This document shows positions 14,368 through 60,719 of a stretch of DNA of 64,000 bases, piece by piece (position 1 is the first letter of the stretch; each line of letters starts with the position of its first letter). Position numbers and translations under genes: made by a program. Below the pieces are notes generated by a model that was not told where the DNA came from, ran no database searches, and was given only the letters and a program-made list of their open reading frames with translations. This DNA is from Leisingera sp. ANG-M1 (GTDB lineage: Bacteria; Pseudomonadota; Alphaproteobacteria; Rhodobacterales; Rhodobacteraceae), in contig NZ_JWLC01000020.1 of assembly GCF_000813745.1 (NCBI RefSeq), forward strand, positions 62,001-126,000, in the 5' to 3' direction.

Positions 14368-15384
14368 CTATCCGCCCCAGGTATCCGACAGGGTGAACCC
14401 CTGCTGGAAGGGGTCCGTGGGGTCGAGGCCGATCTGGCTGATGCCGTAGATCCAGCATTGGCCCGACACGCGGTTTTGGGTGGCGGTGTAGGGGCCGGCA
14501 CGGGTTTCGCGGAGGAATTCGGTTGTGAACTCACCGCCGATGATAGAGCGCGTCAGCGTTAGCGCGCCGGGCTGCACCAGCCCGCGGGCGTGGCGCGCGG
14601 CCATATTGGCGTTGGAGCCGGTGCCGCAGGGGGAGCGGTCGGCGCGGCCCGGGCGCAGGGTGGTGCAGGTGCGGATGGCGCCGTCCGGCTCGGGGCTGCG
14701 GAACATCACATAGGCGAGGCCATTCAGCGCCGGGGTGGTGGTATGCAGCACCTCGGTGCGCCCGGCGATCAGGTTGCGCAGGGCAACGCCGGTCATGGCC
14801 AGCTCGCGGGCGTTTTCCGGCGTGATGGCGAGGCCCAGCTGATCGGCATCCACCAGCGCGTAGAACACGCCGCCGAAGCAGAGGTCATAGGTGATGCGGC
14901 CCCACTCCGGGGTGTCGATCACCGCGTCTTTGGCAGCCACGAAAGCGGGCGGCATATCGAGGGTGACTCGGGTGACCTTGCCGTCTTGGCAGGCGGCTGT
15001 GGCGCGGACCAGGCCTGCAGCGGTGTCGAGCACCACTTCGGTTTCCGGCTCCTGCATGGGTTTCATGCCGGTTTCCAGGATCGCAGTCACTGCGCACATG
15101 GCGTTGGAACCGGACATGGCATGGGCCTGATCCGGCTGAAGCACGATGAAGCCGGTGTCGGCCTCGGGCGTGGTGGCGGGGGGGAGCAGCACGACGGAGC
15201 CTGCTGGCCCCGAGCGCGGCTCGGAACACAGGAGGCGGCGGAGGCTGTCGTCCTGGGTATTCAGGTAATCCAGCTTGTCCGCCATCGTGGTGCCGGGAAT
15301 GTCCAGCAGGCCGCCGGTCACGACGCGGCCGATTTCGCCAGCGCAATGCACATCGACGGTCTGCAGGGTACGGGTCCAGCGCAT
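14368..15384 (-). CDS. Proline racemase superfamily enzyme with Ser91/Cys253 pair (module A)
   Basis: A 338-residue member of the proline racemase superfamily (proline racemase, 4-hydroxyproline 2-epimerase, trans-3-hydroxyproline dehydratase). The first catalytic position is Ser91 (MSGSN) instead of Cys, and the second is Cys253 (DRSPCGTGSNA). A Ser/Cys pair sets it apart from standard Cys/Cys epimerases, so epimerase and dehydratase are both open. It is the last gene of the eleven-gene module A operon, 12 bases after an SDR gene. Its paralogue at 58418 has the same residues at the same positions and the same MRW start. Confidence 0.9.
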   Translation of the reverse strand: MRWTRTLQTVDVHCAGEIGRVVTGGLLDIPGTTMADKLDYLNTQDDSLRRLLCSEPRSGPAGSVVLLPPATTPEADTGFIVLQPDQAHAMSGSNAMCAVTAILETGMKPMQEPETEVVLDTAAGLVRATAACQDGKVTRVTLDMPPAFVAAKDAVIDTPEWGRITYDLCFGGVFYALVDADQLGLAITPENARELAMTGVALRNLIAGRTEVLHTTTPALNGLAYVMFRSPEPDGAIRTCTTLRPGRADRSPCGTGSNANMAARHARGLVQPGALTLTRSIIGGEFTTEFLRETRAGPYTATQNRVSGQCWIYGISQIGLDPTDPFQQGFTLSDTWGG

Positions 15385-15396
15385 GAGGATCTCCTG

Positions 15397-16152
15397 TCAG
15401 GCGACGGCTTGGGCGCCGGTGATTTCGACAACGGAGCCGCAGAGGTAGCCGGCCTCGTCCGAGGCGAGGAAGGCGATCAGCGCGGCGATTTCCTCGGGTT
15501 CGCCGATGCGGCCATAGGGCACCAGCGCGTTGAGGTCGTTGAGGCTGCGCCCGGAGCGGGCGAGGTTGCTTTCCAGCATTGGGGTGCGGACTTCGCCCGG
15601 GGCGACGCCATTCACCCGGATCTTGTCCGGCGCATAGTCGCGGGCGAGGTTTTCCGTGAAGGCCACAACCGCAGCCTTGGTGGTGTTATAGGCGATGTGG
15701 CCGGGTGCGGGGTGCAGCCCCCATTGCGAGGCGGTGTTGACGATGGCGCCGCCGCCCTGGGCCTGCATCACCGGGACCACCGCCTGGCACATGTGGAAGA
15801 GCGCGTCGATGTTGACCTGGAAGGAGAGGCTCCAGTCCTCGGGGGTGAGCTCCATAAGCGCGCCGCGGCGCATCAGGCCCGCGTTGTTGCACAGCACGTC
15901 GATGCTGTGGCCTTTGGCGGTGAGGGCGGAGACAAAGCTGCGGATGGCTTGCGGGTCGGTCAAGTCGACGGCGCTGAAGTCTGCCTGGCCGCCATCGATG
16001 CGGATCGTTGCGGCCAGGTCCTCTGCGGCTCCAGCGTTGGTGTCTACGATCCAGACGTGGGCGCCCTCAGCGGCGAGGCGGCGGCAGATTGCAGCGCCGA
16101 TGCCGCCGGCGCCGCCGGTGACGACTGCTGTCTTGTTTTCGAACCGGTTCAT
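15397..16152 (-). CDS. Short-chain dehydrogenase/reductase (module A)
   Basis: A 251-residue classical SDR. The cofactor motif is TGGAGGIG (residues 12-19), followed by NNAG and the catalytic YNTTK (Tyr and Lys), with an Asp after the second beta strand (IVDTN) favouring NAD. It ends in the usual C-terminal ITGAQ segment. It lies 4 bases from the upstream SDR and 12 from the racemase-family gene. In module A it probably oxidises a hydroxyl group of the substrate or of an intermediate. Module B has only a decayed SDR at the matching place. Confidence 0.92.
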   Translation of the reverse strand: MNRFENKTAVVTGGAGGIGAAICRRLAAEGAHVWIVDTNAGAAEDLAATIRIDGGQADFSAVDLTDPQAIRSFVSALTAKGHSIDVLCNNAGLMRRGALMELTPEDWSLSFQVNIDALFHMCQAVVPVMQAQGGGAIVNTASQWGLHPAPGHIAYNTTKAAVVAFTENLARDYAPDKIRVNGVAPGEVRTPMLESNLARSGRSLNDLNALVPYGRIGEPEEIAALIAFLASDEAGYLCGSVVEITGAQAVA

Positions 16153-16156
16153 TCGG

Positions 16157-16912
16157 TTACCTCATCTGGCTGGCGCCGTTCACGTCGAGAACGGCTCCGG
16201 AAAGGGACGATTGCGACGGGCGCAGGGCAAAGGCGGTTAGTTCTGCTATTTCATTGGGTTCGGCCATGCGGCCGATGGGGATGCCCGAGAGTGCCGCCGC
16301 CTCGCCATGTTTGGCGATATAGGCCTCGGACATTTCCGTGCGGACCCAGCCAGGCGCCAGTGCGGTGGCGGTGATGTTGTCCGCTCCGAAACCGCCCGCG
16401 ATGCTTTGCGTCAGGTTGACCAGCGCCGCCTTGGTGGCGCCATAAGACATCGCTTCGGCCCGGTAGCCGCCCTGCGCCGCGCGGGAGGCCATGTTGACGA
16501 TCCGGCCGCCGCCACGGGCGCGGAAATGGGGGATGGCGGCGCGGCACAGATCTGCGGCGGCCAGCAGGTTCACCTGCACATCGCGCGCCCAGGTCGCCTG
16601 CCATTGGTCCAGCGGGTCATCCACCGAGGAGGGTGACAGGATGCCGGCATTGTTGATCAGCGCATGGATGCGGCCTGCTGCGGCTTCCGCCTCAGCCCAG
16701 AGGCGGGAGGGGGCGGCCGGGTCGCTGAGATCGGCCGCGAAGCACATGGCGCCGTTGCCGATCTCCGCCGCCAAGGCCTCTGCCGTCTCGCGGTTGCGGC
16801 CGTAATGGAGCAGCACCCGGGCGCCCTCGCGGGCGAGCTCCCGGGCGATGGCGGCGCCGATGGTGCCGGTGGCGCCGGTCAGCAGTACGGTTTGCCCTGT
16901 CAGGTGCGCCAT
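16157..16912 (-). CDS. Short-chain dehydrogenase/reductase (module A)
   Basis: A second 251-residue classical SDR, clearly different from its neighbour. Cofactor motif TGATGTIG (13-20), NNAGIL, catalytic MSYGATK. The YGRNR segment after the second strand has no acidic residue and suggests NADP preference. The gene sits between the aldehyde dehydrogenase (3-base gap) and the other SDR (4-base gap), so all three are tightly coupled. Two SDRs of different cofactor preference in one operon could invert a hydroxyl group by oxidation and re-reduction; this is inference. Confidence 0.92.
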   Translation of the reverse strand: MAHLTGQTVLLTGATGTIGAAIARELAREGARVLLHYGRNRETAEALAAEIGNGAMCFAADLSDPAAPSRLWAEAEAAAGRIHALINNAGILSPSSVDDPLDQWQATWARDVQVNLLAAADLCRAAIPHFRARGGGRIVNMASRAAQGGYRAEAMSYGATKAALVNLTQSIAGGFGADNITATALAPGWVRTEMSEAYIAKHGEAAALSGIPIGRMAEPNEIAELTAFALRPSQSSLSGAVLDVNGASQMR

Positions 16913-16915
16913 GGC

Positions 16916-18394
16916 TCAGCCTTTCAGATACCAGCCCCAGGGTTTGGAGCGGTTGTAGGTAGTAATCTGCTTGGTCTCCAAGTAGTTGTTTAGCCCCCAC
17001 TCGCCCAGCTCGCGGCCGATGCCGGATTGTTTGTAGCCGCCCCAGGGCGCTTCGGTGAACGTGGGCTGCGAGCAGTTGACCCAGACGATCCCGGCGCGGA
17101 AGGCGCGGGCAACGCGGTTGGCGCGCTCGAGATCGTTGGACATAACGGCTGCGCCGAGGCCGAAGCGGGAGTCGTTGGCCAGCGTTATAGCTTCCTCTTC
17201 GGTTTTGAAGGGGCGGATGCAGACGACGGGGCCGAAGATTTCTTCGTTCCAGATCCAAGCGTCAGTGGGGACGTCGGCAAAGATGGTGGGTTCGACATAG
17301 CAGCCGTGCTCCAATCCCTCCGGCACGCCGCCGCCGCAGACCAGGCGGGCGCCTTCGGATTTGCCGCGGGCGATGGCGGCGAGGACTTTTTCGTGCTGGC
17401 CCTGGCTGACGAGGGGGCCGAGCAGTACGCCGTCCTCCAGCCCGTGGCCGATTTTGATCTTCTGCGCCTCTTGCTGAAGCCTGGCCAGCAGGGGTTCGTA
17501 GAGACTCTCTTCGATCAGCACGCGGGAGGTGGCGGAGCAGACCTCGCCCTGGTTCCAGAAGATGCCGAACATGATCCATTCGACGGCTTCGTCGATATCC
17601 GCGTCGCCAAAGACCACCATCGGGGACTTGCCGCCAAGCTCCAGGCTGACGGTTTTGATCTCCTGCGCGGCTGTGGCCATGATGCGGGCGCCGGTGGGGA
17701 CAGAGCCGGTGAAAGCGAGCTTGTCGACGCCCGGGTGCTCGGTGAGCGGCTGCCCGGCCTCAGGGCCGAAACCGGTGACGATGTTGAGGACGCCTGCGGG
17801 CAGGCCTGCGGCGGTGGCGATAGTGCCGAGTTCCAGCGCGGTGAGCGGGGTGAGCTCCGAGGGCTTCAGCACCATGCAGCAGCCCGCGGCGAGGGCCGGG
17901 GCGACCTTCCAGGAGGCCATCAGCATCGGGAAGTTCCAGGGGATGATGGCACCTGCCACTCCGACAGGCTCTTTTACCGCCTTGGAGGTGAACTCCGCCA
18001 TCGGCAGTTCGATGTCCTGTTCGGCGCTGTTGGCAAGACGCTCGGCCAGATCGGCGTAGAAGTGAAAGCAGCCCGCGGTGTCCTCGATGTCCCAGACTGC
18101 CTCGGGCAGGGGTTTGCCGTTGTCGCGGACTTCCAGACGCGCCAGTTCGTCGGTGCGGCGGGTGATCTCATCCCCCATCCTGCGCAGGATGGCGGCGCGC
18201 TCGGCCCCGGTCATCCGCGGCCAGATGCCGGTGTCAAAGGCGGCGCGGGCGGCCTGAACGGCGGCGCCGATGTCGGCGGCATTGCCGCGGGCCACCTGGT
18301 GAAATGTCTCGCGGTTGGAAGGGTCCACCACATCGAACAGGGCGCCGGATGCGGAGGCGGCCCATTTGCCGTTGATGAAGAGTTTGTTTTGCAT
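16916..18394 (-). CDS. Aldehyde dehydrogenase (module A)
   Basis: A 492-residue NAD(P)-dependent aldehyde dehydrogenase. Catalytic residues: Asn154 (PWNF), Glu252 (LELGGKSP) and Cys286 (GEVCSATSR). I start at the ATG at 18394 (MQNKLFINGKW), 7 bases from GGAGAAC; an upstream in-frame ATG adds 11 unlikely residues. The FINGKW opening and GEVCSATSR resemble betaine-aldehyde dehydrogenases. In a hydroxyproline-type pathway the expected substrate is alpha-ketoglutarate semialdehyde; next to a choline-sulfatase, betaine aldehyde is the alternative, but no choline dehydrogenase is present. Confidence 0.92.
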   Translation of the reverse strand: MQNKLFINGKWAASASGALFDVVDPSNRETFHQVARGNAADIGAAVQAARAAFDTGIWPRMTGAERAAILRRMGDEITRRTDELARLEVRDNGKPLPEAVWDIEDTAGCFHFYADLAERLANSAEQDIELPMAEFTSKAVKEPVGVAGAIIPWNFPMLMASWKVAPALAAGCCMVLKPSELTPLTALELGTIATAAGLPAGVLNIVTGFGPEAGQPLTEHPGVDKLAFTGSVPTGARIMATAAQEIKTVSLELGGKSPMVVFGDADIDEAVEWIMFGIFWNQGEVCSATSRVLIEESLYEPLLARLQQEAQKIKIGHGLEDGVLLGPLVSQGQHEKVLAAIARGKSEGARLVCGGGVPEGLEHGCYVEPTIFADVPTDAWIWNEEIFGPVVCIRPFKTEEEAITLANDSRFGLGAAVMSNDLERANRVARAFRAGIVWVNCSQPTFTEAPWGGYKQSGIGRELGEWGLNNYLETKQITTYNRSKPWGWYLKG

Positions 18395-18431: not shown

Positions 18432-19670
18432 TTAGAAACGATCGGCCCTGTAGGCGTGCATGTCGATGTTGGGCTGGCGCCCGGCAGCGAGGCTGCGCAC
18501 CAGTTTGCCGGTGGTGGCGCTGAGAGTGAGGCCGAGCTGGCCGTGGCCGGTGGCCAGGATCACGTTGGCAGCACCCGGAGCCCGGCCGATGATGGGCTTG
18601 GTGTCCGGGGTCAGCGGGCGGCGGCCGATGCGGCGCTCGGCGGGCTCGGTGTGCAGGCCGGGCAGAACGCGCTTGGCCTTCTCCACAAGGATTTCGGCGC
18701 GTTTCCAGTTTGGCTGGGCATCAAGGCCAGCAAATTCGATGCTGCCCGCGACGGCCAGCCCGCTTTCATAAGGCGTGATGCCGAAGCCGCCCTTGGCGTA
18801 GACCATGGCGTGGGTCACATCGACGCCAGGGGCCGTGAGGCTGGTCTGGTAGCCGATGACGCCCTGCATCTGGATCGAAACGCCCAGGTCGCGGGCCAGG
18901 TCTTTGGACCAGGCGCCGGCGGCCAGGACGTATTGGTCGCCGGTGACGGTCTCGCCGCTGTCGGTGCGCACGCCTGCGGCGCCGCTGCCGTTGCGCAGGA
19001 AACTGGTGGCGCGGGCGGGTTTCACGGTACCGCCGCGGGTGGTGAAAACGCGGTGCAGCTCGGTCACGAACCGCTTGGTGTCCACCACCGAGCGCCAATC
19101 GAGGAACACCGTGGCGCAGGCGAAATCACCGGCAATTGAAGGCTCCATTTCCTTGGCCTCGCCGCCGCTGATCTCGTCAATCTGGAAGCCGAGCGCGCGG
19201 CGCATGTCGTGGAAATCGCGCTCGTGGGCGAGCTCTTCGGTACTGTCGTAGAGCTCCATCACCGGGGTCGGGCGCAGCAGGTCCGAGAGCCCATAGCGCG
19301 CCAGCATGGACTGCAGGTCGGCGAGCGACGGCAGGGTGAGCGCGGCGATGTCGGCGCTGATCGCCCGGATCCGGCTGGCGCGGGCGTTGGCGGCAAAGCG
19401 CAGGAACCAGGGCAGCACCCCGAGCGCGGATGAGGCACGCAAGGTCAGCGGCCCCAGCGGGTCCAGCAGCCAGCCCGGTGCCTTCATCATGATGCCGGGT
19501 TTAGAGAGCGGGATCACCTCGCTGACGGCGATGGATCCGCAGGAGGCCCAGCTGGCGCCTTCACCGATGGGGCCGGGTTCCAGCACGGTGACGCGGTGGC
19601 CGTCGTCCTGCAGCTCCAATGCGCAGGCGATGCCGACAACGCCGCCGCCGATGACCACGATATGGCTCAT
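18432..19670 (-). CDS. DadA-like FAD-dependent D-amino/imino acid oxidoreductase (module A)
   Basis: A 412-residue flavoprotein of the DAO/DadA family. The N-terminal FAD motif is VVIGGGVVGIACALEL (residues 4-19) and the C-terminal GHGQLGLT segment is typical of D-amino acid dehydrogenases. There is no signal peptide; electrons probably go to the respiratory chain. In hydroxyproline catabolism the matching step oxidises cis-4-hydroxy-D-proline to the pyrroline. It lies between the DapA-family gene and the aldehyde dehydrogenase, the same partners as its paralogue at 59457. Confidence 0.9.
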   Translation of the reverse strand: MSHIVVIGGGVVGIACALELQDDGHRVTVLEPGPIGEGASWASCGSIAVSEVIPLSKPGIMMKAPGWLLDPLGPLTLRASSALGVLPWFLRFAANARASRIRAISADIAALTLPSLADLQSMLARYGLSDLLRPTPVMELYDSTEELAHERDFHDMRRALGFQIDEISGGEAKEMEPSIAGDFACATVFLDWRSVVDTKRFVTELHRVFTTRGGTVKPARATSFLRNGSGAAGVRTDSGETVTGDQYVLAAGAWSKDLARDLGVSIQMQGVIGYQTSLTAPGVDVTHAMVYAKGGFGITPYESGLAVAGSIEFAGLDAQPNWKRAEILVEKAKRVLPGLHTEPAERRIGRRPLTPDTKPIIGRAPGAANVILATGHGQLGLTLSATTGKLVRSLAAGRQPNIDMHAYRADRF

Positions 19671-19734: not shown

Positions 19735-20625
19735 TTACCAGTTCAGGATCGGTTCCATCGCGGCGCGGAATTCGGTCTTTTCCTGATCCGTGAGCGAGCC
19801 CAGCGGGGCGCGGCATTCGCCGACAGGCAGGCCCTGCAGCTCGCAGCCGTATTTGATCTTCTGCACGAACTTGCCGGATTCCAGGATGTTCATGGCGCGG
19901 TAGAGCGTCTTCATCATCTCTTTCGCCTTATCCAGGTCGCCCGCCTTGTAGGTGCGGTCCAGGTCGCAGCAGGCCTTGGCCATGCAGTTGGACGGGCCGC
20001 AAATCCAGCTGTCCGCGCCCCAGAACATGAAGTCCAGCGCAATGTCGTCGGAGCCGGAGACCAGCTGGATTTTGCCTTCGTAGCGCGAGGCGATGTCGAT
20101 CGCGCGCTGCAGCACGCCGGAGCTTTCCTTGATGCCGATGACGCGGGGATTGTCGGCGAAGTGGTCCATCAGCTCGAAGCTGATGTCATTGCCGTCCTTC
20201 AGCGGGTAGGAGTAGAGCACCAGGTTCACGTCGACTTCGGCCAGCACGGTCTCATAGTGCTTGATCAGCTCATCCTGGGTCGGGCGGGTGTAAAAGGGCG
20301 GCGCCAGCAGCACGTTGTCATAGCCGATGTCCTTGGCCATGGCAGTCTGCTCGATCACTTCGCGGGTGGCGGGCGCGTTGGTGCCTGCGATCAGGATCTC
20401 GTCATCGTTGGCGAATTCCTTGACGAACTGCAGCACCTGGCGGCGTTCCTCAGTGGACTGGCTGAAGTATTCGCCGGTGGAGCCGTTGGGCACCCAGCCG
20501 GTCACGCCTGCTTCACGGAAATGGGTCAGCAGTTTTTCGAAGGCACCGAAGTCGACGCTGCCGTCGGCGCTGAAGGGGGTCACGAGAGCGGGCATGACGC
20601 CCGAGAGTTTGACGTTGTAGCTCAT
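19735..20625 (-). CDS. DapA/NAL-family lyase (module A)
   Basis: A 296-residue (beta/alpha)8 Schiff-base lyase of the dihydrodipicolinate synthase family. The Schiff-base lysine is Lys166 (GIKESSG), the proton-relay tyrosine Tyr138 (LYSYP), and the carboxylate-binding loop is GSTGEY (48-53). It is unlikely to be the housekeeping DapA because it is embedded in a catabolic operon with an oxidase and an aldehyde dehydrogenase; pyrroline-4-hydroxy-2-carboxylate deaminase is the best fit. Its ATG overlaps the choline-sulfatase-like stop by four bases. Paralogue at 55904. Confidence 0.9.
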   Translation of the reverse strand: MSYNVKLSGVMPALVTPFSADGSVDFGAFEKLLTHFREAGVTGWVPNGSTGEYFSQSTEERRQVLQFVKEFANDDEILIAGTNAPATREVIEQTAMAKDIGYDNVLLAPPFYTRPTQDELIKHYETVLAEVDVNLVLYSYPLKDGNDISFELMDHFADNPRVIGIKESSGVLQRAIDIASRYEGKIQLVSGSDDIALDFMFWGADSWICGPSNCMAKACCDLDRTYKAGDLDKAKEMMKTLYRAMNILESGKFVQKIKYGCELQGLPVGECRAPLGSLTDQEKTEFRAAMEPILNW

Positions 20626-22166
20626 GAGGAGGTCCTTTTGGTGTTGTAGGGGAGGTAGCCGCGCTGTTCGACTTCGGGAAAGGCGTCGCCGCGGCGGACA
20701 TAGTTGGTGTTCTGGGTGAGAGGGCGCGGGGTGAAATCCCAGATTTCCTCGCGGCCCGTAGAGAGGGCGTTGTCGATCAGTTTGCGCGCAACCTGGCTGG
20801 CGATGACGTCATCCAGCAGGGTGTCGAGCGGCCAGGTCTGTTCGGCAAGTTCGGTCAGGCGGGCCTCGTCCGCATCGCCTTGGCCTGCCAGGTTGACCTG
20901 CTCCAGCGGGTCGGCGGCGAGGTCATAGAGCTGCGGCGGGTAGGCGCGGGAGATCACCAGCTTCTTGTCGCCGTCGCGGACGCAGACACGCGGGGCGGAG
21001 GTGCCGCCGTCGATGTGTTCGGCAAAAACGGGGCCGATCAGGGCCTCGCTCCGCAGGGCGGGCATCAGGCTGCGGCCGTCCAAGGGCGTCTTGATGGCCT
21101 CGCCCCGGATGCCGCCGATGTCGAGGAGGGTCGGGAAGATATCCAGCAGCGAGGCCGGTGCCGCGACCCGGCCGGGGGCGTGCCCTGGATGGGCGATGAT
21201 CAGCGGTACCTGAATGGCCGGGTTGAACAGGGTCTTTTTGAACCACATGCCGCGCTCGCCGATCATGTCGCCATGGTCGGAGGCAAAGAGCACCACGGTG
21301 TTGTCTGCATAGCCGCTCTCGTCCAGCGCCTGCATCAGGCGGCCGAACAGGTCATCGACGTAAGAAATCATCCCGTAATAGCCGCGCCGCGCGTTGCGGT
21401 AGTCCTGCTCGCTCAGCGCGCATTTGTCTTGGCCGTAGTGGTAGTAGAGCGACTGGCTGTGGGCGTCGCGCTGTTCCACCGGGATATGGGGCACCTGCGG
21501 GGCGTCGATAGTGTCTTCCGGGTGGCGGTCCCAGTATTCCTGGGTGGTCACATAGGGGTCATGCGGATGGGTCAGCGAGACCGTCATCATGAAGGGACGG
21601 GTGTCGTCGCTGCGCGCCCGGGTGTAGAGCTCGCGCACAGCGTGGTGGATGACGTCCTCGTCGTAGTCGATCTGCATCGACCGGGCAACGGGGCCTGCGT
21701 CGCGCACGGTGTCGATGGTGGAGACGCCGAAGGTATAGGCGCGCTCTTCGTCCTTGTTGTAGTCGCGGAAATCTGCGTCCGGGGTCCAGGACATGTCGGC
21801 CGGGTAGATCTCGGTCGTGAGGCGTTCCTCAAACCCGTGGTATTGGTCGGGGCCGACGAAGTGCATCTTGCCTGAGATACAGGTGTAATAGCCGTTTGCC
21901 CGCAGGTAATGGGCAAATGTCGGGGTGGAGGCGGTGAATTCGGCGCCGTTGTCATAGGCACCGATGCGCGAGGGCAGGCGGCCTGCCATCATTCCGAACC
22001 GAGATGGCGCGCAAAGCGGATAGGGGCAATAGGCGTTTTCGAACACCGTGCCGCGCGCCGCCAAAGCGTCGATGTTGGGGGTTTTGCAGGTGGTGCCGCC
22101 ATAGGCGTTCAGCACAAATGAGGTGAGCTGATCGACCATGAACAGGATGATGTTGGGTTTTGTCAT
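20622..22166 (-). CDS. Choline-sulfatase-like sulfatase (module A)
   Basis: A 514-residue type I sulfatase close to BetC. The formylglycine-forming Cys52 is in CAPSR; metal ligands include Asp12 (MVDQL) and the ASDHGD segment. The C-terminal tail IWDFTPR...NYVRR is the choline-sulfatase C-terminal domain signature. No signal peptide, so it acts in the cytoplasm and would need an anaerobic or FGE-type maturase encoded elsewhere. It is coupled by ATGA overlap to the DapA-family gene rather than to betA/betB, so the true substrate may be a sulfate ester other than choline sulfate, for example an O-sulfated imino acid or betaine. Confidence 0.9.
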   Translation of the reverse strand: MTKPNIILFMVDQLTSFVLNAYGGTTCKTPNIDALAARGTVFENAYCPYPLCAPSRFGMMAGRLPSRIGAYDNGAEFTASTPTFAHYLRANGYYTCISGKMHFVGPDQYHGFEERLTTEIYPADMSWTPDADFRDYNKDEERAYTFGVSTIDTVRDAGPVARSMQIDYDEDVIHHAVRELYTRARSDDTRPFMMTVSLTHPHDPYVTTQEYWDRHPEDTIDAPQVPHIPVEQRDAHSQSLYYHYGQDKCALSEQDYRNARRGYYGMISYVDDLFGRLMQALDESGYADNTVVLFASDHGDMIGERGMWFKKTLFNPAIQVPLIIAHPGHAPGRVAAPASLLDIFPTLLDIGGIRGEAIKTPLDGRSLMPALRSEALIGPVFAEHIDGGTSAPRVCVRDGDKKLVISRAYPPQLYDLAADPLEQVNLAGQGDADEARLTELAEQTWPLDTLLDDVIASQVARKLIDNALSTGREEIWDFTPRPLTQNTNYVRRGDAFPEVEQRGYLPYNTKRTSS

Positions 22167-52646: not shown

Positions 52647-53305
52647 TGAGTCCACCTCTTTTCAAGCCGCGCGGCGTAGTGGGAAATCGGATATGACAGG
52701 GCAAAGTAGAACGCCCCTGCGATGGCCAGGATCAGGAAGGTTTCCTGGGTGCGGGTGATCAGGATCTGGCTGGCTTTGAGCAGCTCGACATAGCCCAGCA
52801 CCGACACCAGGGCGCTGTCCTTCATGACGCCCAGTGCGACGCCGATCCAGGCCGGGAACACGGCACGCAGACCGATGGGCCAGACCACATACCGCATGTC
52901 CTGCCAGTAGCTCATGCCCAGGCTGCGGGCGGCGCGGCGCATCGGGCCGCCCACGGCCTCGATCCCAGCCTGCGCCACCGTGGCCACATTGGCCGAGGTG
53001 TAGACGACCAGCACAATCAGCCCGGCCTCAAACGGGTTCAGCCGCAGCCCGATCATCGGCGCAAAGTTGAAGAACAGCACCAGCTGGATGATCAGCGGCA
53101 CCGAGCGGAACACATCCAGCACCGGCGCCAGAGTCAGCGCTCCTGCCCTGCGGCTAACGCTGAGCAGCCAGCCGAAGACAACGCCCATGGCACTGCCGAA
53201 GGTGATGGCCAGGATGGAAATCCACATAGATTTGAGTGCGGCTTCGCCGAGGAACCAGAGATCGTTCAGCGTGAAGCCGGAAAAGAAAGTTGCGGTAGGT
53301 TGCAT
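52643..53305 (-). CDS. Polar amino-acid ABC transporter permease (module B)
   Basis: A 220-residue HisM/HisQ-type inner-membrane permease with about five spans. The coupling loop is GGPMRRAARSLGMSYWQ near residues 138-154. It is of the usual short length, unlike the long Aap permeases of module A. It is coupled to the ATPase gene by ATGA overlap and follows the other permease after 12 bases. Confidence 0.93.
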   Translation of the reverse strand: MQPTATFFSGFTLNDLWFLGEAALKSMWISILAITFGSAMGVVFGWLLSVSRRAGALTLAPVLDVFRSVPLIIQLVLFFNFAPMIGLRLNPFEAGLIVLVVYTSANVATVAQAGIEAVGGPMRRAARSLGMSYWQDMRYVVWPIGLRAVFPAWIGVALGVMKDSALVSVLGYVELLKASQILITRTQETFLILAIAGAFYFALSYPISHYAARLEKRWTQ

Positions 53306-53317: not shown

Positions 53318-53977
53318 TCAATATCTGAACAGGCGCACGGCCAGCAGCCGGGAAGCGCCCAGGATGAGCTTGACGATCACGTAGTAGATCACCGCGGTAA
53401 CCGCGAAATACTCGAAGATCCGGAAGGTCTTGGAGGCAAAGAACTGGGTTTCGCCCGACAGTTCGCGGAACCCCACCAGCATGCCCAGCGACGAGATCAG
53501 CACCGCCCAGACCATCTGGTTGGTGATCGGCAGATAGACGATGCGCAGCACCTGCGGGATGACGATCCGGGTATAGGCCTGAAACGCCGTCATGCCGAGG
53601 CTGCGGGAGGCGCGGATCTGGGTCTCCGGCACGGCGCCGAAGCCGCCGCGGAAGTTTTCCGCCAGATAGCCTGCGTTGTTGAAGCTCAGCGCCAGGAGCA
53701 CGATCATATACGGGCTCAGATGCAGCCCGAATGAGCCGAGCCCGAAGCCGAAGAAGAACAGCTGGAACAGCGCCGGCGTGTTGCGGGCCAGCTCGACCCA
53801 GGCCGAGGCCAGCCATTTGACCGGCCCGGTCATATGCAGCCGGATCAGCGCCAAGCCCAGCCCGATCACGATGCCGAAGACGATGGAGATGGCAGCGACC
53901 TGCAGGGTCAGCAGCGACGCCTCCAAGAGCTCGGGCAGCGCCTTGATCACCGGTTTCCAGTGAAAGTTGTAGTCCAC
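53318..53977 (-). CDS. Polar amino-acid ABC transporter permease (module B)
   Basis: A 219-residue HisM/HisQ-type permease, partner of the one at 52643. The coupling loop is TQIRASRSLGMTAFQAY near residues 138-155, and the first span begins near residue 20. It follows the binding-protein gene after 63 bases containing a strong hairpin. The two permeases probably form a heterodimer. Confidence 0.93.
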   Translation of the reverse strand: MDYNFHWKPVIKALPELLEASLLTLQVAAISIVFGIVIGLGLALIRLHMTGPVKWLASAWVELARNTPALFQLFFFGFGLGSFGLHLSPYMIVLLALSFNNAGYLAENFRGGFGAVPETQIRASRSLGMTAFQAYTRIVIPQVLRIVYLPITNQMVWAVLISSLGMLVGFRELSGETQFFASKTFRIFEYFAVTAVIYYVIVKLILGASRLLAVRLFRY

Positions 53978-54040: not shown

Positions 54041-54850
54041 TCAGTAGTAGACGCCGGGAATGCGCAGCTCGGGCGCTTCACCGCCGACATATTTGCCCCA
54101 CAGCTCCTGGTAACGGCCGGAGCGCACCTGATGGGTCACAAACAGGTTGAGGTAGTTAAGCCAGGTGACATCGGTGCGCGGGCCGACAACCGAGGTGTAA
54201 TCGGTACCCCAGGGCATCCGCGGGCCTGCCACCAGGCTGTCATACTGCTGGGTCACCGGCAGCACTGCAGTATTGGTTGTGATGCCCGCATCTGCCTTGC
54301 CCTGAGCCACCGCCAGAAAGACTTCGTTTTCGGACTGGTAGCCCTGGTAGTTGCCCTCTTCGCCCCATTCCTTGGCGATCTTCAGCCATTCCTGCTCGGG
54401 GACGGTGCCGACAGCCGCCGCCACCCGCTTGCCGCGCAGGTCCTCAAAACTTTGGATGCCGGTGTCGGCGCCAACCACGACCTGCGCATAGTAGATCGCA
54501 TAAGGTACCGAGAAGCCCACGGTCTTGGCACGCGCCAGCGAATCCGAGGTGCCGCCGAACACCACATCGGCGCGGTTGGTGACGATCACCGGCAGCCGTT
54601 CGGCCCAGGTCACCGGAATGATTTCCGCCTCAACCTCCAGCGCTGCTGCCAGGTCAGTGCAATAATCGACGTCAAACCCGGCCGGGTTGTTGTTGGCATC
54701 GCGGTAGCCGATCGGAGGGAAATCCAGCACCACACCGCAGCGCAGCACGCCCTCGTCGATCACATCGTCCAGCTTGTCCGCTGCCGCGGCGCCGGCACCA
54801 AGCCACAGCGCTGCGGCGGCTGCAGTCAGGATCTTTGTTGCTTTGATCAT
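54041..54850 (-). CDS. Polar amino-acid ABC transporter substrate-binding protein (module B)
   Basis: A 269-residue periplasmic binding protein (SBP_bac_3 fold) with signal peptide (MIKATK start, cleavage after AAAA near residue 24). Features: GVLRCGVVLDFPPIGYRDANN and GFDVDYCTDLAAALEVE at the start of the mature domain, and ADVVFGGTSDSLARAKTVGFS. I start at the ATG at 54850, preceded by GGGAGAAG; a longer frame is not supported. First gene of the module B transporter operon, directly behind the GTCGAC array. Different subfamily from the module A binding protein. Confidence 0.93.
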   Translation of the reverse strand: MIKATKILTAAAAALWLGAGAAAADKLDDVIDEGVLRCGVVLDFPPIGYRDANNNPAGFDVDYCTDLAAALEVEAEIIPVTWAERLPVIVTNRADVVFGGTSDSLARAKTVGFSVPYAIYYAQVVVGADTGIQSFEDLRGKRVAAAVGTVPEQEWLKIAKEWGEEGNYQGYQSENEVFLAVAQGKADAGITTNTAVLPVTQQYDSLVAGPRMPWGTDYTSVVGPRTDVTWLNYLNLFVTHQVRSGRYQELWGKYVGGEAPELRIPGVYY

Positions 54851-54917: not shown

Positions 54918-54950
54918 TTGTCGACATTTTAGTCGACAAATAAGTCGACA
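54918..54950. promoter_or_regulatory. Candidate GntR operator array, module B
   Basis: Three GTCGAC cores at 54920, 54932 and 54944, exactly 12 bases apart, in an AT-rich stretch 68 bases upstream of the binding-protein start. The first copy reads TTGTCGACATTTT, identical over 13 bases to the module A site at 26416. The array lies between the GntR terminator and the transporter start, where a repressor would block the transporter promoter. Confidence 0.8.
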
Positions 54951-55064: not shown

Positions 55065-55763
55065 TTAATATTCCACCGAATACCCGGTCATTTGCCGGCT
55101 GCCGAGGTAGCTGAGGAATCGCTGCTGCATCTCGATGGTGTGCTCGCGGGCATAGCGCTCGGCCCGCTCCGGATCCCGGGCTTCGATGGCGGCGATCAGA
55201 TTGTCGTGGCCGCCCAGCAGCTCAACCGGCAGCACATCGCCGTAGGATTTGAAATACAGCCGCAGGAACCGGCGCCCGTCGTCCAGAAGCTGGGCATAGG
55301 CCTCTTCCAGGTACTTGTTGTTGGTGGCCTGGGCGATGGCGACATGGAAATCGCGGTTGCACAGGATCATGCCCAGCACATCATTGGCCTTCACCGCATC
55401 GACAAACCGCTGCTGTGCCTCTTTGATCAGCTCCAGCCCGCGGTCGCTGCGCACCTCTGCGGCCAGCCGCGAGGCGGCGCGCTGCACCAGGTCCAGCGTG
55501 TCGACATATTGCGGAAACTCCTGGATCCGCAGCTGGGCAACAATGGTGCCCTTGTTGGGCAGGGTCTGCAGCAGCGACTCCGACACCAGCCGCACCAAAG
55601 CCTCCCGCACCGGCGACCGCGACACCCCGAATCGCGTCGCCAAACGCGACTCATCCACCAGCTCTCCGGGCTGCATTTCCAGCGACAGGATTTCATCCCT
55701 GAGCGTCTCGTAAATCGTCAGGGCGCCAAAGCCGCGCGCATTTTTCCGTTTGTCTGTTGCCAT
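55065..55763 (-). CDS. GntR-family regulator, FadR subfamily (module B)
   Basis: A 232-residue regulator paralogous to the one at 26540. Winged helix with LRDEILSLEMQPGELVDESRL and recognition helix SRSPVREALVRL (about 49-60); FCD ligand domain with NRDFHVAIA and GGHDNLIAAI...REH metal/effector residues. It sits between the leftward transporter operon and the rightward enzyme operon of module B and probably controls both. The near-identical recognition helix of the module A protein implies overlapping operator use. Confidence 0.93.
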   Translation of the reverse strand: MATDKRKNARGFGALTIYETLRDEILSLEMQPGELVDESRLATRFGVSRSPVREALVRLVSESLLQTLPNKGTIVAQLRIQEFPQYVDTLDLVQRAASRLAAEVRSDRGLELIKEAQQRFVDAVKANDVLGMILCNRDFHVAIAQATNNKYLEEAYAQLLDDGRRFLRLYFKSYGDVLPVELLGGHDNLIAAIEARDPERAERYAREHTIEMQQRFLSYLGSRQMTGYSVEY

Positions 55764-55903: not shown

Positions 55904-56809
55904 ATGCGCTTCACCGGAATCTACACCCCGATCATCACCCCGTTCCTCGACGACGGATCGATTGATTGGGACGGCTACGCGGACGTCATCGAATGGCAGA
56001 TCGAAAACGGCGTGGCCGGGATTATCGTGGGCGGCTCCACCGGCGAGTTTTACGCGCTGTCCAAGGAAGAGCGGATCCAGCAGTTCCGCTTTGCTGCTGA
56101 GCGGATCAACGGCCGGGTGGAGCTGATGGCCGGCGTCAACGACATCCGGGTCGAGGAATGCCTGGAGATTGTTGCAGCAGCGAAAGAGGCTGGCGCCCAG
56201 TCGCTGCTGGTGGCGGCACCGCCCTATTCGCTGCCCTCCGAGGCCGAGCTGGCGCATCATGTACTCAAGATCGCCGAAGCAGGGCTGCCGATCATGCTCT
56301 ACAACTACCCGGGCCGCACCGGCGTTGAGATGGGCGAGGAGTTCCTGTCGATCGTGTCGCAAAACCCGCTGGTCTGCGCGATCAAGGAATCCAGCGGCGA
56401 CTACAGCCGCCTGCCTTTTCTGGCCCGCAACTACCCCGGCATCGAACTGGTTGTCGGCGGCGAGGAGCAGGTGCTGGAGTTCGCCGCCTGGGGCGCCAAG
56501 GCCTGGGTCTGCGCCAGCGCCAATATCTTCCCGGCGGAATGCGTGAAGTTTATGGAAATCGCCGCCAGCGGCGCCGATCAGGCGCAGGCACGGCAGCTGA
56601 TGGCCGCCTTCATGCCCCTGATGGGTATTCTCGAACAGGGCGGCAAGTTCCTGCAATGCGTCAAACACGGCTGCGCCGAACAGGGCCGCCCTTCTGGCAT
56701 CGTGCGGCCGCCGCTGCTGCCGATGGACGACGCGCTGAAGCAGGAGATGAGCGGCATCACTGCCGCCACACGCCAGGACGTGAACGCAATCCTCAACGCA
56801 AAAGGCTGA
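55904..56809 (+). CDS. DapA/NAL-family lyase (module B)
   Basis: A 301-residue Schiff-base lyase of the dihydrodipicolinate synthase family: Lys161 (AIKESSG), Tyr133 (LYNYP), GGSTGEF loop (44-49). I start at the ATG at 55904 (MRFTGIYTP), 8 bases after AGGAG; an upstream frame adds 22 unlikely residues. In this operon the best fit is deamination/dehydration of pyrroline-4-hydroxy-2-carboxylate to alpha-ketoglutarate semialdehyde. First gene of the rightward module B enzyme operon; paralogue of 19735 but not a close copy. Confidence 0.9.
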   Translation: MRFTGIYTPIITPFLDDGSIDWDGYADVIEWQIENGVAGIIVGGSTGEFYALSKEERIQQFRFAAERINGRVELMAGVNDIRVEECLEIVAAAKEAGAQSLLVAAPPYSLPSEAELAHHVLKIAEAGLPIMLYNYPGRTGVEMGEEFLSIVSQNPLVCAIKESSGDYSRLPFLARNYPGIELVVGGEEQVLEFAAWGAKAWVCASANIFPAECVKFMEIAASGADQAQARQLMAAFMPLMGILEQGGKFLQCVKHGCAEQGRPSGIVRPPLLPMDDALKQEMSGITAATRQDVNAILNAKG

Positions 56810-56813
56810 TCCC

Positions 56814-58328
56814 ATGTCCGATCTTTTGACCAAGGAAGACTATCAGGCGGTGGCCGCGGGGCTCAGCCTGCCCACCGAAGCCTTCCTCAACGGCGCCTTC
56901 CGCAAGCCTAATGCAGGCAAGACCATGAAGACCGTCAACCCGGCCACCGGCCAGGTGCTGGCGCAGATCTCGGCCTGCGACGCATCCGATGTCGACGATG
57001 CGGTGGCCGCCGCCAAGGCCGCCTTCGAGGGCGGCAGCTGGTCGCAGCGCCATCCGGGTGAACGCAAGGCAGTGCTGCTGCAGCTGGCGCAGCTGATAGA
57101 GGACAATCAGACCGAACTGGCGGTGCTGGAAAGCCTGGAAAGCGGCAAACCGATCAGCGAATGCGTGCAGACCGATCTGCCGGAAACCATCAGCACCATT
57201 CGCTGGCACGCCGAGGCGATCGACAAGCTCTATGATCAGGTGTCGCCGGCCAACGCAGACGGTATCGGGCTGATCGTGCGCGAGCCGCTGGGGGTGGCGG
57301 GCTGTGTGCTGCCCTGGAACTTCCCGCTGATGATGCTGGCCTGGAAGATCGGCCCGGCGCTGGCGGGCGGCAACAGTGTGGTGGTGAAACCGGCCGAACA
57401 GACCTCTATGACTGCGCTGCGGGTGGCTGAACTGGCGCATCAGGCCGGCATCCCGGCGGGCGTGCTGAACGTGCTGCCGGGCCTCGGTCCGGATGTGGGC
57501 GAGCCGATGGGGCGCCATCCGGATATCCAGGCGCTTTCCTTCACCGGCTCGACCGAGGTCGGGCGGCTGTTCCTGGAGTTCTCGGCACAAAGCAACCTCA
57601 AGAAAGTGATCCTGGAATGCGGCGGTAAGAACCCCGCGGTGGTGCTGTCGGATGCCGGCAATCTGGACGCTGTGGCCGAACACGCGGTCTTTGCCGCGCT
57701 GTGGAACATGGGGCAGAACTGCACCGCCAACTCGCGGCTGATCGTGCACAAGGATCTGGCGGGCGAGCTGCTCGCCAAGGTGCAGGAGAAGCTGGCAGAG
57801 TGGCACACCGGCGATCCGCTGGAGCCTTCCAACCAGCTGGGCGCCATCATCTCGCAGGAGCAGTACGGCAAAATCCTTGGCTACATCCAATCGGCCAAGG
57901 ATCAGGGCGCCGAACTGGCGGCCGGCGGCAAGGCCATCGAACGGGACGGCGGGTTGTTCATCGAGCCGACGCTGTTCACTGGTGTCACGCCGAGCATGAC
58001 CATCGCCCAGGAAGAAATCTTTGGCCCGGTCTTTGCGATGATGGTTGTCGGCAGCGACGAGGAGGCCATCAAGCTGGCCAATGACACCTGCTACGGGCTG
58101 CAGGCCTCGCTTTACACGTCCAATGTGACCAAGGCGCATAAATACGGGCGGATGCTGCAGGCGGGCACGGTCTCGGTGAACTGCTACGGCGAAGGTGACA
58201 TCACCACGCCCTTCGGCGGCTACAAGCTGTCGGGCTTCGGCGGCCGCGACAACTCGCTGATGGCGCATGACCAGTACACCGAGACCAAGACGCTGTGGAT
58301 CGACATCAGCGCCGATCCGGCGGCCTGA
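56814..58328 (+). CDS. Aldehyde dehydrogenase (module B)
   Basis: A 504-residue aldehyde dehydrogenase with catalytic Asn169 (PWNF), Glu268 (LECGGKNP) and Cys303 (GQNCTANSR). The sequence is of the PuuC/gamma-aminobutyraldehyde-dehydrogenase-like branch and differs clearly from the module A enzyme at 16916, so the two were not produced by a recent duplication. It follows the DapA-family gene after 4 bases. Expected substrate in a hydroxyproline-type route: alpha-ketoglutarate semialdehyde. A 7-bp hairpin follows the stop. Confidence 0.93.
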   Translation: MSDLLTKEDYQAVAAGLSLPTEAFLNGAFRKPNAGKTMKTVNPATGQVLAQISACDASDVDDAVAAAKAAFEGGSWSQRHPGERKAVLLQLAQLIEDNQTELAVLESLESGKPISECVQTDLPETISTIRWHAEAIDKLYDQVSPANADGIGLIVREPLGVAGCVLPWNFPLMMLAWKIGPALAGGNSVVVKPAEQTSMTALRVAELAHQAGIPAGVLNVLPGLGPDVGEPMGRHPDIQALSFTGSTEVGRLFLEFSAQSNLKKVILECGGKNPAVVLSDAGNLDAVAEHAVFAALWNMGQNCTANSRLIVHKDLAGELLAKVQEKLAEWHTGDPLEPSNQLGAIISQEQYGKILGYIQSAKDQGAELAAGGKAIERDGGLFIEPTLFTGVTPSMTIAQEEIFGPVFAMMVVGSDEEAIKLANDTCYGLQASLYTSNVTKAHKYGRMLQAGTVSVNCYGEGDITTPFGGYKLSGFGGRDNSLMAHDQYTETKTLWIDISADPAA

Positions 58329-58343
58329 TCCTAAGACTGTACT

Positions 58344-58368: not shown

Positions 58369-58417
58369 GGCACCCCGAAAGATTGCACTGAACAGGCCCA
58401 GCCAAAAGGACGTCAGC

Positions 58418-59452
58418 ATGCGCTGGAAAAAGACAATCACTATGGTCGAGGCTCATGCAGAGGGCGAAGTCGGCCGCATCGTCACCGGCGGCGTCCTGGA
58501 CGTGCCCGGCCGGACCATGCTGGACAAGATGAACCACATCAACCAGGTGGACGACAGCCTGCGCCGCTTCCTGGTGAACGAGCCGCGTGGCTGCGCCCAG
58601 ATGAGCACCAACCTGCTGCTGCCCAAAACCCACTCGGACGCCGACGCCGCCTATATGATCTTTCAGGGCGACAAGGCGCATGCGATGTCCGGCTCCAACA
58701 GCATCTGCCTGGTCACCGTGCTGCTGGAAACCGGCATGGTCGAGATGGTCGAGCCGGAAACCATTGTCACGCTGGAAACCCCCGCCGGGCTGGTGCGGGC
58801 GCGGGCCGCCTGCAAGGACGGCAAATGCGAGCGGGTGACCCTGGACATGCCGCCCTCTTACGCCGACCAGCTGGATGCGGTGGTCGAGGTTGAGGGGCTG
58901 GGCAAGGTCACCGTCGACATTGCTTTTGGCGGCATCTTCTACGGGCTGATCGATCCGGCGCAGTTCGGGTTGCGGATCACACCGGAGAACGCGCGCAAGC
59001 TGGTGGAGATCGGCTGCCGGGTACACCGGGCGATCAATGCCCAGCTGGAGGTGCGGCACCCGCAGCTCGAGGGGCTTGAGGGCATCTCCTACACGATGTT
59101 TGTCAGCCACGACGATGACGGCACCATGAAAGGCGCCACCATCCTACCGCCCGGGCGCATCGACCGTTCGCCCTGCGGCACCGGCAATTCGGCCCGGCTG
59201 GCCTGCATGCATGCGCGCGGCTTGGTCGCCGAGGGCTCCACCCATACCGCCCGCTCGGTCATCGACAGCACCTTTGAGGTGACCGTCACCGGCACAACCG
59301 AGGTCGCGGGCCGCCCGGCAATTCTGCCGCGTGTGTCCGGGCGCGGATGGGTGCATGGCATCCACCAGATCGGGCTGGATCCCTCCGACCCCTACCCGCT
59401 TGGCTATATGGTCGCCGACTGCTGGGGCGACGCCTTTGACTTGCTGAGCTGA
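58418..59452 (+). CDS. Proline racemase superfamily enzyme with Ser91/Cys253 pair (module B)
   Basis: A 344-residue member of the proline racemase superfamily. As in its module A paralogue, the first catalytic position is Ser91 (MSGSN) and the second Cys253 (DRSPCGTGNSA). I start at the ATG at 58418 (MRWKKT), 8 bases after AAGGA. Expected reactions: 4-hydroxyproline 2-epimerisation or trans-3-hydroxyproline dehydration; the Ser/Cys pair prevents a firm choice. It lies between the aldehyde dehydrogenase and the DadA-like gene (4-base gap to the latter). Confidence 0.9.
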   Translation: MRWKKTITMVEAHAEGEVGRIVTGGVLDVPGRTMLDKMNHINQVDDSLRRFLVNEPRGCAQMSTNLLLPKTHSDADAAYMIFQGDKAHAMSGSNSICLVTVLLETGMVEMVEPETIVTLETPAGLVRARAACKDGKCERVTLDMPPSYADQLDAVVEVEGLGKVTVDIAFGGIFYGLIDPAQFGLRITPENARKLVEIGCRVHRAINAQLEVRHPQLEGLEGISYTMFVSHDDDGTMKGATILPPGRIDRSPCGTGNSARLACMHARGLVAEGSTHTARSVIDSTFEVTVTGTTEVAGRPAILPRVSGRGWVHGIHQIGLDPSDPYPLGYMVADCWGDAFDLLS

Positions 59453-59456
59453 CCAG

Positions 59457-60719
59457 ATGAGCACGAAATTCGAAACAGGCGCCTCCATCGCGGTGATCGG
59501 CGCCGGCATCGTTGGCGTGGCCAGCGCCTTTGACCTTGCCCGGCGCGGCTATGCGGTGACTGTGTTCGATCCGGCGCCGCCTGGCCAGGGCGGGCCGTCG
59601 TGGCGCAATGCCGGGCAGATCGGCGCCTCGGACCTGCAGCCGCTCAGCACCCCCGGCATTGCTCTGACCGGGTTGCGGATGATGCTGCGGAAAGACAGCC
59701 CGCTGAGCATCCCAGGCCTTGAGAAGCTGCGGCTGATGCCCTGGTTCTGGCGCTTCCTGGCCACCTCGCGCGGTGAAAACTACCGGAACGCCTGCTCGGC
59801 GATGAAAACGCTGGCGCGGCATGCCTTCGAGGACATGTCCGACATGCTGTCTGAGGCAGGCATCCTTGGCAAAATGCGCCGCTCCGGTGCCGGTTTCATC
59901 TATGACAGCGCCCAGAGCTTTGCCGCCAGCCAGCCCACCTGGGCGATGAAAGCCAAGGCCGGTTTTGCCGCATACCCGATGAACCGGCAGGACATTGCCG
60001 CCCGGTTGCCGGAGATGGATACGGCCTTCACCCACGGTATGCTCTCGGAAAACTGGGGCGATGTATCCGACCCGCTGGAGATCGTTCAGGATCTCGCCAA
60101 AGAGCTGCGCCGCCGCGGCGTTGCCTTCCGGGAGAACACTGTCACCGGGCTGACCCCAGCCGAAAAAGGGGTATCGGTGACGACCCCGGCGGGGATTGAG
60201 GTGTTCGACGGAGCGGTTGTCGCCGCGGGTATCGCCTCCCGGCAGTTCGCCAAGGCTTTGGGGGAGAAGCTGCCTCTGGTGGCCGAGCGCGGCTACAACC
60301 TGACCTTCCCAAACCCGGGCTTCAAACTGGAGTTGCCGCTGATCCTGCCGGACCGCGGCATCGCCATCACCCAGCTGGGCGAAGGGCTGCGGATCGGCGG
60401 CTGGGCGGAATATGCCGCCAATCCCGGCCGTCCGGAAAACAAGTCCTATTACCGGGCGCTGTCGCGGATCAGCTCGGAGATCTTCCCAGGCTTGAACCAA
60501 AGCGGCGCCATCGCCTGGATGGGCAACCGCCCCTCGCTGCCGGATTCGATACCGGTGATTTCGCGCTCCCTGCGCAGCACCCGCGTGTTCTACAATTGCG
60601 GGCACGGCCACTACGGGCTGTCCAATTCGGCCACCTCGGCCCGCATTCTGGGCACGTTGATCGCGGGCGCCGAGCAGCCGCCGGCCCATCGGGCTTTTAC
60701 TCTCCGGCGCTTCAACTGA
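59457..60719 (+). CDS. DadA-like FAD-dependent D-amino/imino acid oxidoreductase (module B)
   Basis: A 420-residue flavoprotein of the DAO/DadA family: FAD motif IAVIGAGIVGVASAFDLARR (11-30) and GHGHYGLSNSATSARILG at the C-terminus. No signal peptide. In the hydroxyproline route it would oxidise cis-4-hydroxy-D-proline to the pyrroline carboxylate. It is 4 bases from the racemase-family gene. Downstream only gene fragments remain, so it is now the last intact gene of the operon. Paralogue of 18432 but only distantly similar. Confidence 0.91.
   Translation: MSTKFETGASIAVIGAGIVGVASAFDLARRGYAVTVFDPAPPGQGGPSWRNAGQIGASDLQPLSTPGIALTGLRMMLRKDSPLSIPGLEKLRLMPWFWRFLATSRGENYRNACSAMKTLARHAFEDMSDMLSEAGILGKMRRSGAGFIYDSAQSFAASQPTWAMKAKAGFAAYPMNRQDIAARLPEMDTAFTHGMLSENWGDVSDPLEIVQDLAKELRRRGVAFRENTVTGLTPAEKGVSVTTPAGIEVFDGAVVAAGIASRQFAKALGEKLPLVAERGYNLTFPNPGFKLELPLILPDRGIAITQLGEGLRIGGWAEYAANPGRPENKSYYRALSRISSEIFPGLNQSGAIAWMGNRPSLPDSIPVISRSLRSTRVFYNCGHGHYGLSNSATSARILGTLIAGAEQPPAHRAFTLRRFN

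Follow-up and report, generated by a model that had tools for sequence, protein, structure and literature searches.

The window analysed here is a 64,000-nucleotide stretch of the Leisingera sp. ANG-M1 genome (contig NZ_JWLC01000020.1, positions 62,001 to 126,000), and it contains two catabolic modules of the hydroxyproline type, module A (14368-27244) and module B (50809-60719), the first of which includes a sulfatase gene. Family assignments come from comparing the proteins of the window with Pfam and NCBIfam (Table 1). The scans agreed with the original prediction that both modules hold a proline-racemase-family enzyme (ProR), a DadA-like oxidase, a DapA-family lyase, an aldehyde dehydrogenase (ALDH), an amino-acid ATP-binding cassette (ABC) transporter and a GntR-type regulator, and the four enzyme classes of the trans-4-hydroxyproline pathway, together with transporter and regulator, are present in each. 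Pairwise identity between the modules was 50% for ProR, 38% for ALDH, 36% for the lyases, 29% for the oxidases, 45% for the regulators and 52% for the ABC ATPases, and the binding proteins were 33% identical across 138 residues. With identities of 29-52%, the modules are not recent duplicates, in agreement with the original prediction. Genes additional to that prediction were the sulfatase (20622-22166) and two short-chain dehydrogenases/reductases (SDRs; 15397-16912) in A, and a cis-3-hydroxyproline dehydratase (50809-51912) in B.

Reading leftwards from the regulator gene, module A consists of the binding protein, two long permeases, the ATPase, the sulfatase, the DapA-family lyase, the DadA-like oxidase, the ALDH, SDR2, SDR1 and the racemase-family enzyme. 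All of these lie on the minus strand with gaps of no more than 132 bp, and the regulator gene is divergent. In module B, the dehydratase, a short-permease ABC transporter and the regulator are encoded on the minus strand, and the lyase, ALDH, racemase-family enzyme and oxidase on the plus strand.

Table 1. Features of modules A and B, with positions in the window (FAD, flavin adenine dinucleotide).
Module	Feature	Position	Strand	Evidence
A	Proline-racemase-family enzyme, predicted hydroxyproline 2-epimerase (Ser/Cys pair)	14368..15384	-	PF05544, 351 bits
A	SDR1	15397..16152	-	adh_short; homologues in Roseobacter A operons and S. meliloti pSymA
A	SDR2	16157..16912	-	adh_short_C2
A	Aldehyde dehydrogenase, predicted alpha-ketoglutarate semialdehyde dehydrogenase	16916..18394	-	PF00171, 579 bits; none of its best 25 NCBIfam models above cut-off
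A	DadA-like FAD oxidase, predicted D-hydroxyproline oxidase	18432..19670	-	PF01266 DAO, 186 bits
A	DapA-family lyase, predicted imino-acid deaminase/dehydratase	19735..20625	-	PF00701, 223 bits
A	Formylglycine-type sulfatase	20622..22166	-	TIGR03417, 581 bits (cut-off 433); CxPSR motif
A	ABC ATPase	22299..23045	-	ABC_tran
A	Long amino-acid ABC permease 1	23057..24124	-	BPD_transp_1
A	Long amino-acid ABC permease 2	24138..25280	-	BPD_transp_1; own-genome paralogues 45% and 35%
A	Periplasmic substrate-binding protein (start uncertain)	25369..26376	-	TIGR01096, 125 bits, under cut-off
A	Operator-like copy 1, TGTCGACA	26417..26424		Motif search
A	Operator-like copy 2, TGTCGACA, 26 bp from copy 1	26443..26450		Motif search
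A	GntR/FCD regulator	26540..27244	+	43% to GntR of S. meliloti pSymB region
B	cis-3-Hydroxy-L-proline dehydratase (enolase superfamily)	50809..51912	-	NF043002, 712 bits (cut-off 500)
B	ABC ATPase	51924..52646	-	Pfam scan
B	Short ABC permease	52643..53305	-	Pfam scan
B	Short ABC permease	53318..53977	-	Pfam scan
B	Substrate-binding protein, family 3	54041..54850	-	Pfam scan
B	Three GTCGAC copies at 12-bp steps	54919..54950		Motif search
B	GntR/FCD regulator	55065..55763	-	48% to GntR of S. meliloti pSymB region
B	DapA-family lyase	55904..56809	+	PF00701
B	Aldehyde dehydrogenase	56814..58328	+	PF00171, 555 bits
B	Proline-racemase-family enzyme, predicted 4-hydroxyproline epimerase (4HypE; Ser/Cys pair)	58418..59452	+	PF05544, 402 bits
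B	DadA-like FAD oxidase	59457..60719	+	PF01266, 194 bits

The best PDB matches of both racemase-family enzymes were 4q2h and 4lb0, the latter ranking first for B. Structure 4LB0 is a hydroxyproline epimerase of Agrobacterium vitis with trans-4-hydroxyproline bound (eLife 2014, PMC4113996). In that paper the catalytic pair of the new epimerase is given as Ser93 and a Cys, the labels of two A. vitis proteins being mutually inconsistent, and the word 'sulfatase' is absent from the main text. Both window enzymes retained the motifs MSGSN and SPCGTG and therefore have the catalytic pair Ser/Cys, as in 4LB0, and not the Ser/Thr of trans-3-hydroxyproline dehydratase. A Cys/Cys reading of the pair was dropped after the same paper. 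The dehydratase of module B was 82-85% identical to genes so named on three Roseibium/Ruegeria plasmids (85% in Roseibium porphyridii), and B looks like one of that group of loci. Judging from its gene content, module B is a hydroxyproline locus of known kind.

The two regulators were compared with a region of Sinorhizobium meliloti. At 252-280 kb of a record without annotation, in a stretch that we take to lie on pSymB, genes for a GntR, a DapA-family protein, an ALDH-like protein, an ABC transporter, a DAO-family oxidase and two racemase-family proteins stand in a row. Because this gene content fits and the hyp genes of S. meliloti are controlled by HypR (PMC5343134), the stretch was taken as the hyp cluster. 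Like modules A and B, this presumed trans-4-hydroxyproline cluster (HypE/HypO/HypD/KGSADH) combines a racemase-family epimerase, a DadA-like oxidase, a DapA-family lyase and an ALDH-like gene with an ABC transporter, a GntR and a candidate TGTCGACA site. It differs in that A adds the sulfatase, the two SDRs and the long-permease transporter, and in that identities of 23.7-29% for the DapA-like and ALDH proteins are not those of close orthologues. The solved relatives of the racemases, and the resemblance of both regulators to that of the pSymB region with a site in common, bear out the label 'hydroxyproline-type' given in the original prediction.

The sequence TGTCGACA occurred four times in the window against 0.71 expected from shuffles, and 1 of 100 shuffles reached four copies. 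Two copies lie 26 bp apart before the binding-protein gene of A, one lies before that of B, where it belongs to a set of three GTCGAC copies repeating every 12 bp, and one is inside the regulator gene of B. In the whole 5.37-Mb genome, TGTCGACA followed by GTCGACA within 30 bp was found only at A and B (backward control 0). Sixteen loci were then chosen for having a mapped GntR (L127, L129 and L131-L135 were left out), and GTCGAC was present within 260 bp upstream of the GntR gene in all 16, at least twice in 14; they include the S. meliloti pSymA operon and, with a single copy, the pSymB region. A putative TGTCGACA operator was thereby located at A, at B and before the GntR gene of the pSymB region.

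The sulfatase of module A exceeded the cut-off of the choline-sulfatase model TIGR03417 and carried the formylglycine motif C-x-P-S-R as CAPSR. In the S. meliloti choline sulfatase, Trp129 and His145 of a GW-X13-WYHN hairpin clamp the quaternary ammonium (PMC9063841). Choline specificity is attributed to Glu386, reportedly invariant in >80 putative choline sulfatases (PMC5870055). For comparison, 147 sulfatases were extracted and joined to that of the window (148); 24 duplicates were removed, leaving 124, and proteins longer than 700 aa were trimmed to 640 before alignment. Thirty-nine sequences, including the window's, were grouped as clade A at a limit of 51.5% identity that was set after viewing the list, and were afterwards found to form one clade (Shimodaira-Hasegawa-like approximate likelihood ratio test 99, quick tree method). 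In all 39, Glu386 was replaced by Gly and His145 by Ser, and Trp129, Asn75, His201 and Lys309 were kept (residues 201, 309 and 386 read from motif-anchored columns). A further 47 relatives of the WYHN type, which keep His145 by construction as they were chosen by that motif, all kept Glu386, a residue on which they had not been chosen. Among the other 38 relatives this position was Glu in 33, Asp in 3 and a gap in 2. The A sulfatase thus resembles BetC (SmCS/SmeCOSe; PDB 6g5z, 6fny, 7pth) in sequence family, formylglycine motif and the Asn75, His201 and Lys309 columns; unlike BetC, it lacks the WYHN hairpin with His145 as well as Glu386, as does the whole clade, and its operon is of hydroxyproline type and not bet.

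The nearest named relatives of the A sulfatase were from Leisingera, with 97% identity over 431 residues (L109) and 91-92% near full length (L104, L105). In one sample of 393 other genomes of the same family, a clade-A sulfatase was found in three (81, 80 and 55% identity), so its distribution is patchy; the whole A operon was present in two of the three (G591, G413). As no signal peptide was evident at its start by eye, the enzyme was taken as cytosolic. The formylglycine-generating-enzyme family PF03781 had two matches in the genome, which may include other proteins.

Gene neighbourhoods, mapped by tblastn, were compared for the best 80 of 573 loci from a genome scan: 37 with clade-A sulfatases and 43 outside the clade, these being the rest of the same loci and not a random draw (L141 was placed outside by hand, in agreement with the tree). 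A racemase-family gene was found in 17/37 clade loci, a DapA-family gene like that of A or B in 12/37, a gene of the A-type long-permease transporter in 25/37 and an unassigned enolase-superfamily gene, c6, in 10/37; none of the four occurred in the 43 outside loci. The wider set of 85 outside-clade sequences comprised 72 loci of at least 8 kb, none with a racemase-family gene, the other 13 being too short or not searched. Sulfatase, transporter and racemase/oxidase/lyase stand together in Leisingera, Ruegeria, Thalassovita, Defluviimonas, Sulfitobacter, Mameliella, Pelagibius and Shinella, and a clade-A sulfatase with a racemase-family gene was also found in Sinorhizobium, Mesorhizobium, Pararhizobium and Caballeronia. 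The racemase-family gene and c6 never occurred in one locus among the 80. Eight of the ten c6 loci (L107, L111, L112, L113, L115, L116, L117, L119, L121 and L122) kept the sulfatase and the A-type transporter and not the racemase set, the other two being on contigs of <10 kb, and some had a DAO-family gene. Their hosts were Granulosicoccaceae in 8/10, with a Roseobacter and a Rhizobiaceae metagenome-assembled genome besides. No close solved relative was found for c6.

The opposite arrangement was seen on pSymA of S. meliloti ml45 (L184), where a GntR, a short-permease transporter, a DapA-like protein, an oxidase, an SDR, an ALDH, a racemase and two further SDRs are encoded without a sulfatase. 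Compared with A, the proteins were 56% (GntR), 89% (DapA-like), 37% (oxidase), 65% (ALDH), 54% (ProR) and 61-62% (SDRs) identical. From this operon without the sulfatase, and from the c6 loci without the racemase set, it follows that the long-permease transporter is tied to the sulfatase, and the catabolic enzymes to the product left after desulfation. This division is the main argument for the imported compound being the sulfate ester. Two alternatives draw on the same operon. The sulfatase might act on choline or another osmolyte and be parked in A, which would then be a second module for free hydroxyproline; its NCBIfam name, scored above cut-off, and the existence of the pSymA operon would fit. 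We consider this improbable in view of the loss of Glu386 and His145 in 39/39, and of a transporter association kept in alpha- and gammaproteobacterial loci and a ProR association in a betaproteobacterial one. Alternatively, A and B might serve two free stereo- or regioisomers of hydroxyproline with no sulfate involved, the SDR pair swapping the C4 configuration via 4-oxoproline. The SDRs are indeed present in the sulfatase-free operon too, but those of this kind are missing from the Pelagibius and Shinella versions, and the sulfatase and its co-travelling transporter would be left unexplained, which makes this alternative very improbable.

Based on these observations, module A was postulated to be a catabolic operon for a hydroxyproline sulfate ester, most likely 4-hydroxyproline O-sulfate, with B as a module for free 3-/4-hydroxyproline, an assignment to which we give an even chance. 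Gene content, the sulfatase clade and its loss of choline-binding positions, the linkage across lineages and the common sites are observed; the substrate, all reactions and any direction of regulation are predictions. The long-permease transporter would import the intact ester and the cytosolic sulfatase would strip the sulfate. The racemase-family enzyme would then invert C2, the DadA-like oxidase would form the cyclic imine, the DapA-family enzyme would open it to alpha-ketoglutarate semialdehyde, and the aldehyde dehydrogenase would yield alpha-ketoglutarate. A HypR-like GntR would act at the paired TGTCGACA sites of A, and B would take free hydroxyproline under the same kind of site. The substrate of A may also be the sulfate ester of a close cyclic hydroxy-imino acid, and hydroxypipecolate sulfate would fit almost as well. 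The original prediction was thus correct as an observation and about half right as an interpretation. Its proposal of two different substrates is upheld in kind, B having the cis-3-hydroxyproline dehydratase and A the sulfatase and its own transporter. Sulfated forms were one item in its list of candidates, and it named no sulfatase; the gene found in A now favours that item.

Several observations weigh against the hydroxyproline sulfate assignment. The best NCBIfam model of both racemases is that of trans-3-hydroxyproline dehydratase (NF047722), below its cut-off of 550 (A 300, B 385), although both have Cys at the position where the dehydratase has Thr. The DapA-like enzyme of A just passes the DapA equivalog model TIGR00674 (211 against a cut-off of 206), and orthology of the DapA-like proteins to HypD was expected and not found: they share only 28.5% (A) and 23.7% (B) identity with their pSymB counterpart of the DapA family. 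Ring opening is therefore assigned to this enzyme from its context. The original prediction had named placement of the DapA-like proteins with unrelated functions as a sign against it, and in this respect the outcome was mixed. In the A protein, however, Lys166 is present and the DapA arginine position is not conserved in the alignment (YSYPLKDG); we take this position to be Arg138 of DapA, with the role and numbering that we assume for that residue. The known hydroxyproline route has no step for the two SDRs, and the C4 swap by the pair is a guess. His145 was also missing from 28 of the 38 sulfatases outside both clade A and the WYHN group (10 keep it), so it is the loss of Glu386, and not that of His145, that is special to clade A. 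The window as a whole is rich in GTCGACA (27 copies where 5.5 are expected), most of them within genes, and single copies therefore mean little. ProR was not seen in 20/37 clade loci, where some contigs are short, so the neighbourhood counts are lower bounds; the loci are also related, and as the ProR label needs as few as five changes on the tree, the 17 ProR loci are not 17 independent events. Sulfated hydroxyproline, under several spellings, was not found in the open-access literature, nor was a description of such sulfatase-fronted hydroxyproline breakdown, though a subscription paper could exist.

Class-IV aminotransferases, which are ill-suited to a secondary amine, were found near 7/37 clade sulfatases and 2/43 others, a hint at an acyclic intermediate. 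The substrate would then be the sulfate of an acyclic 4-hydroxy amino acid, converted by oxidase or aminotransferase to a 4-hydroxy-2-oxo acid, with the DapA-like enzyme as aldolase and the ALDH oxidising the resulting aldehyde. The mitochondrial 4-hydroxy-2-oxoglutarate aldolase is among the PDB matches of the A DapA-like enzyme, though ranked under many DapA entries. The nearest solved racemase relative of known activity is, however, a hydroxyproline epimerase, and A shares its sites with module B, the holder of the cis-3-hydroxyproline dehydratase; an acyclic substrate is accordingly thought unlikely.

A six-ring homologue was also considered, in which hydroxypipecolate sulfate would pass through the same enzyme classes to 2-oxoadipate, the chemistry being the same and one carbon longer. 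Some legumes contain 4-hydroxypipecolate sulfate, on which our literature search turned up nothing, and three plasmid carriers are rhizobia for which Leucaena, Calliandra and Gliricidia are recorded. Two c6 loci, L112 and L107, encode an ornithine-cyclodeaminase-family reductase with a class-IV aminotransferase, and the L112 reductase, beside the sulfatase, best matches the model of a bifunctional pyrroline-/piperideine-2-carboxylate reductase, below cut-off (259 against 322). The racemase relatives and the common sites point instead to hydroxyproline, and many carriers belong to marine genera. This homologue appears unlikely, though the least so of the alternatives.

The hydroxyproline betaine (Hpb) pathway ends in D-hydroxyproline oxidation and needs demethylases. 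None was detected in A or B by the Pfam and NCBIfam scans, and betaine forms, also proposed in the original prediction, were set aside: elsewhere, clade-A sulfatases lack neighbours like the Rieske genes at 6144-11152, apart from one weak match of 29% (L125) among L104-L146. Two of these Rieske-oxygenase-like genes, at 6144-7238 (-) and 8844-9998 (+), matched the glycine betaine monooxygenase model far under cut-off. The third, at 10009-11152 (+), looks broken: it is split over two frames, with 10018-10650 and 10748-11146 aligning to separate parts of the adjoining gene. Between the modules, a 794-aa protein with a putatively FAD-binding start, as judged by eye, adjoins an OpuAC-type betaine transporter (33380-35764, 36816-40825), the permease of which is one 654-aa protein with two matches; this stretch may serve betaine metabolism. 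The same interval encodes a TorS-sensor-type hybrid histidine kinase beside a gene that looks by eye like a response regulator and a periplasmic binding protein (41015-45757), and a sulfotransferase-domain protein (PF19798; 46774-47556, -), in the same window as the sulfatase.

Two further sulfatases are encoded in this genome. One, a divergent enzyme (L055, C66:138500-158400), lies 1.5 kb from a second cis-3-hydroxyproline dehydratase homologue (513 bits, cut-off 500) and was considered as independent support; this was rejected, as the three closest homologues (71-84%) have no dehydratase neighbour and keep other L055 genes. The other (L054, C13:172500-192400) keeps WYHN at a locus with no racemase-family gene. 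Its Rieske-SDR-ALDH-SDR setting is common to L054 and L094, perhaps for another quaternary-amine sulfate. Plasmid records with a DapA-like gene at 60-90% identity to that of A numbered 103. A plasmid of Rhizobium sp. NXC24 (L213) has two sets ~18 kb apart: one combines a clade-A sulfatase, ProR and the transporter, and the other a DapA-like gene (88%), another ProR, an ALDH and both SDRs.

The enzymes of clade A may all have one function, in a sulfatase family that is new and wrongly named choline sulfatase. They would cleave the sulfate ester of an amino acid, either hydroxyproline O-sulfate or a ring homologue, after uptake by a transporter of its own. This front end of import and desulfation would be common to marine roseobacters, Granulosicoccaceae and rhizobia, which would combine it with a racemase-family or an enolase-superfamily back end. 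We regard the case for such a family as evenly balanced. If it holds, a set of genes now named betC would have been assigned the wrong substrate, a sulfated imino acid would be present, so far overlooked, in algae, marine animals or plants, and bacteria of sea water and the rhizosphere would have an amino-acid sulfate ester as a nutrient.

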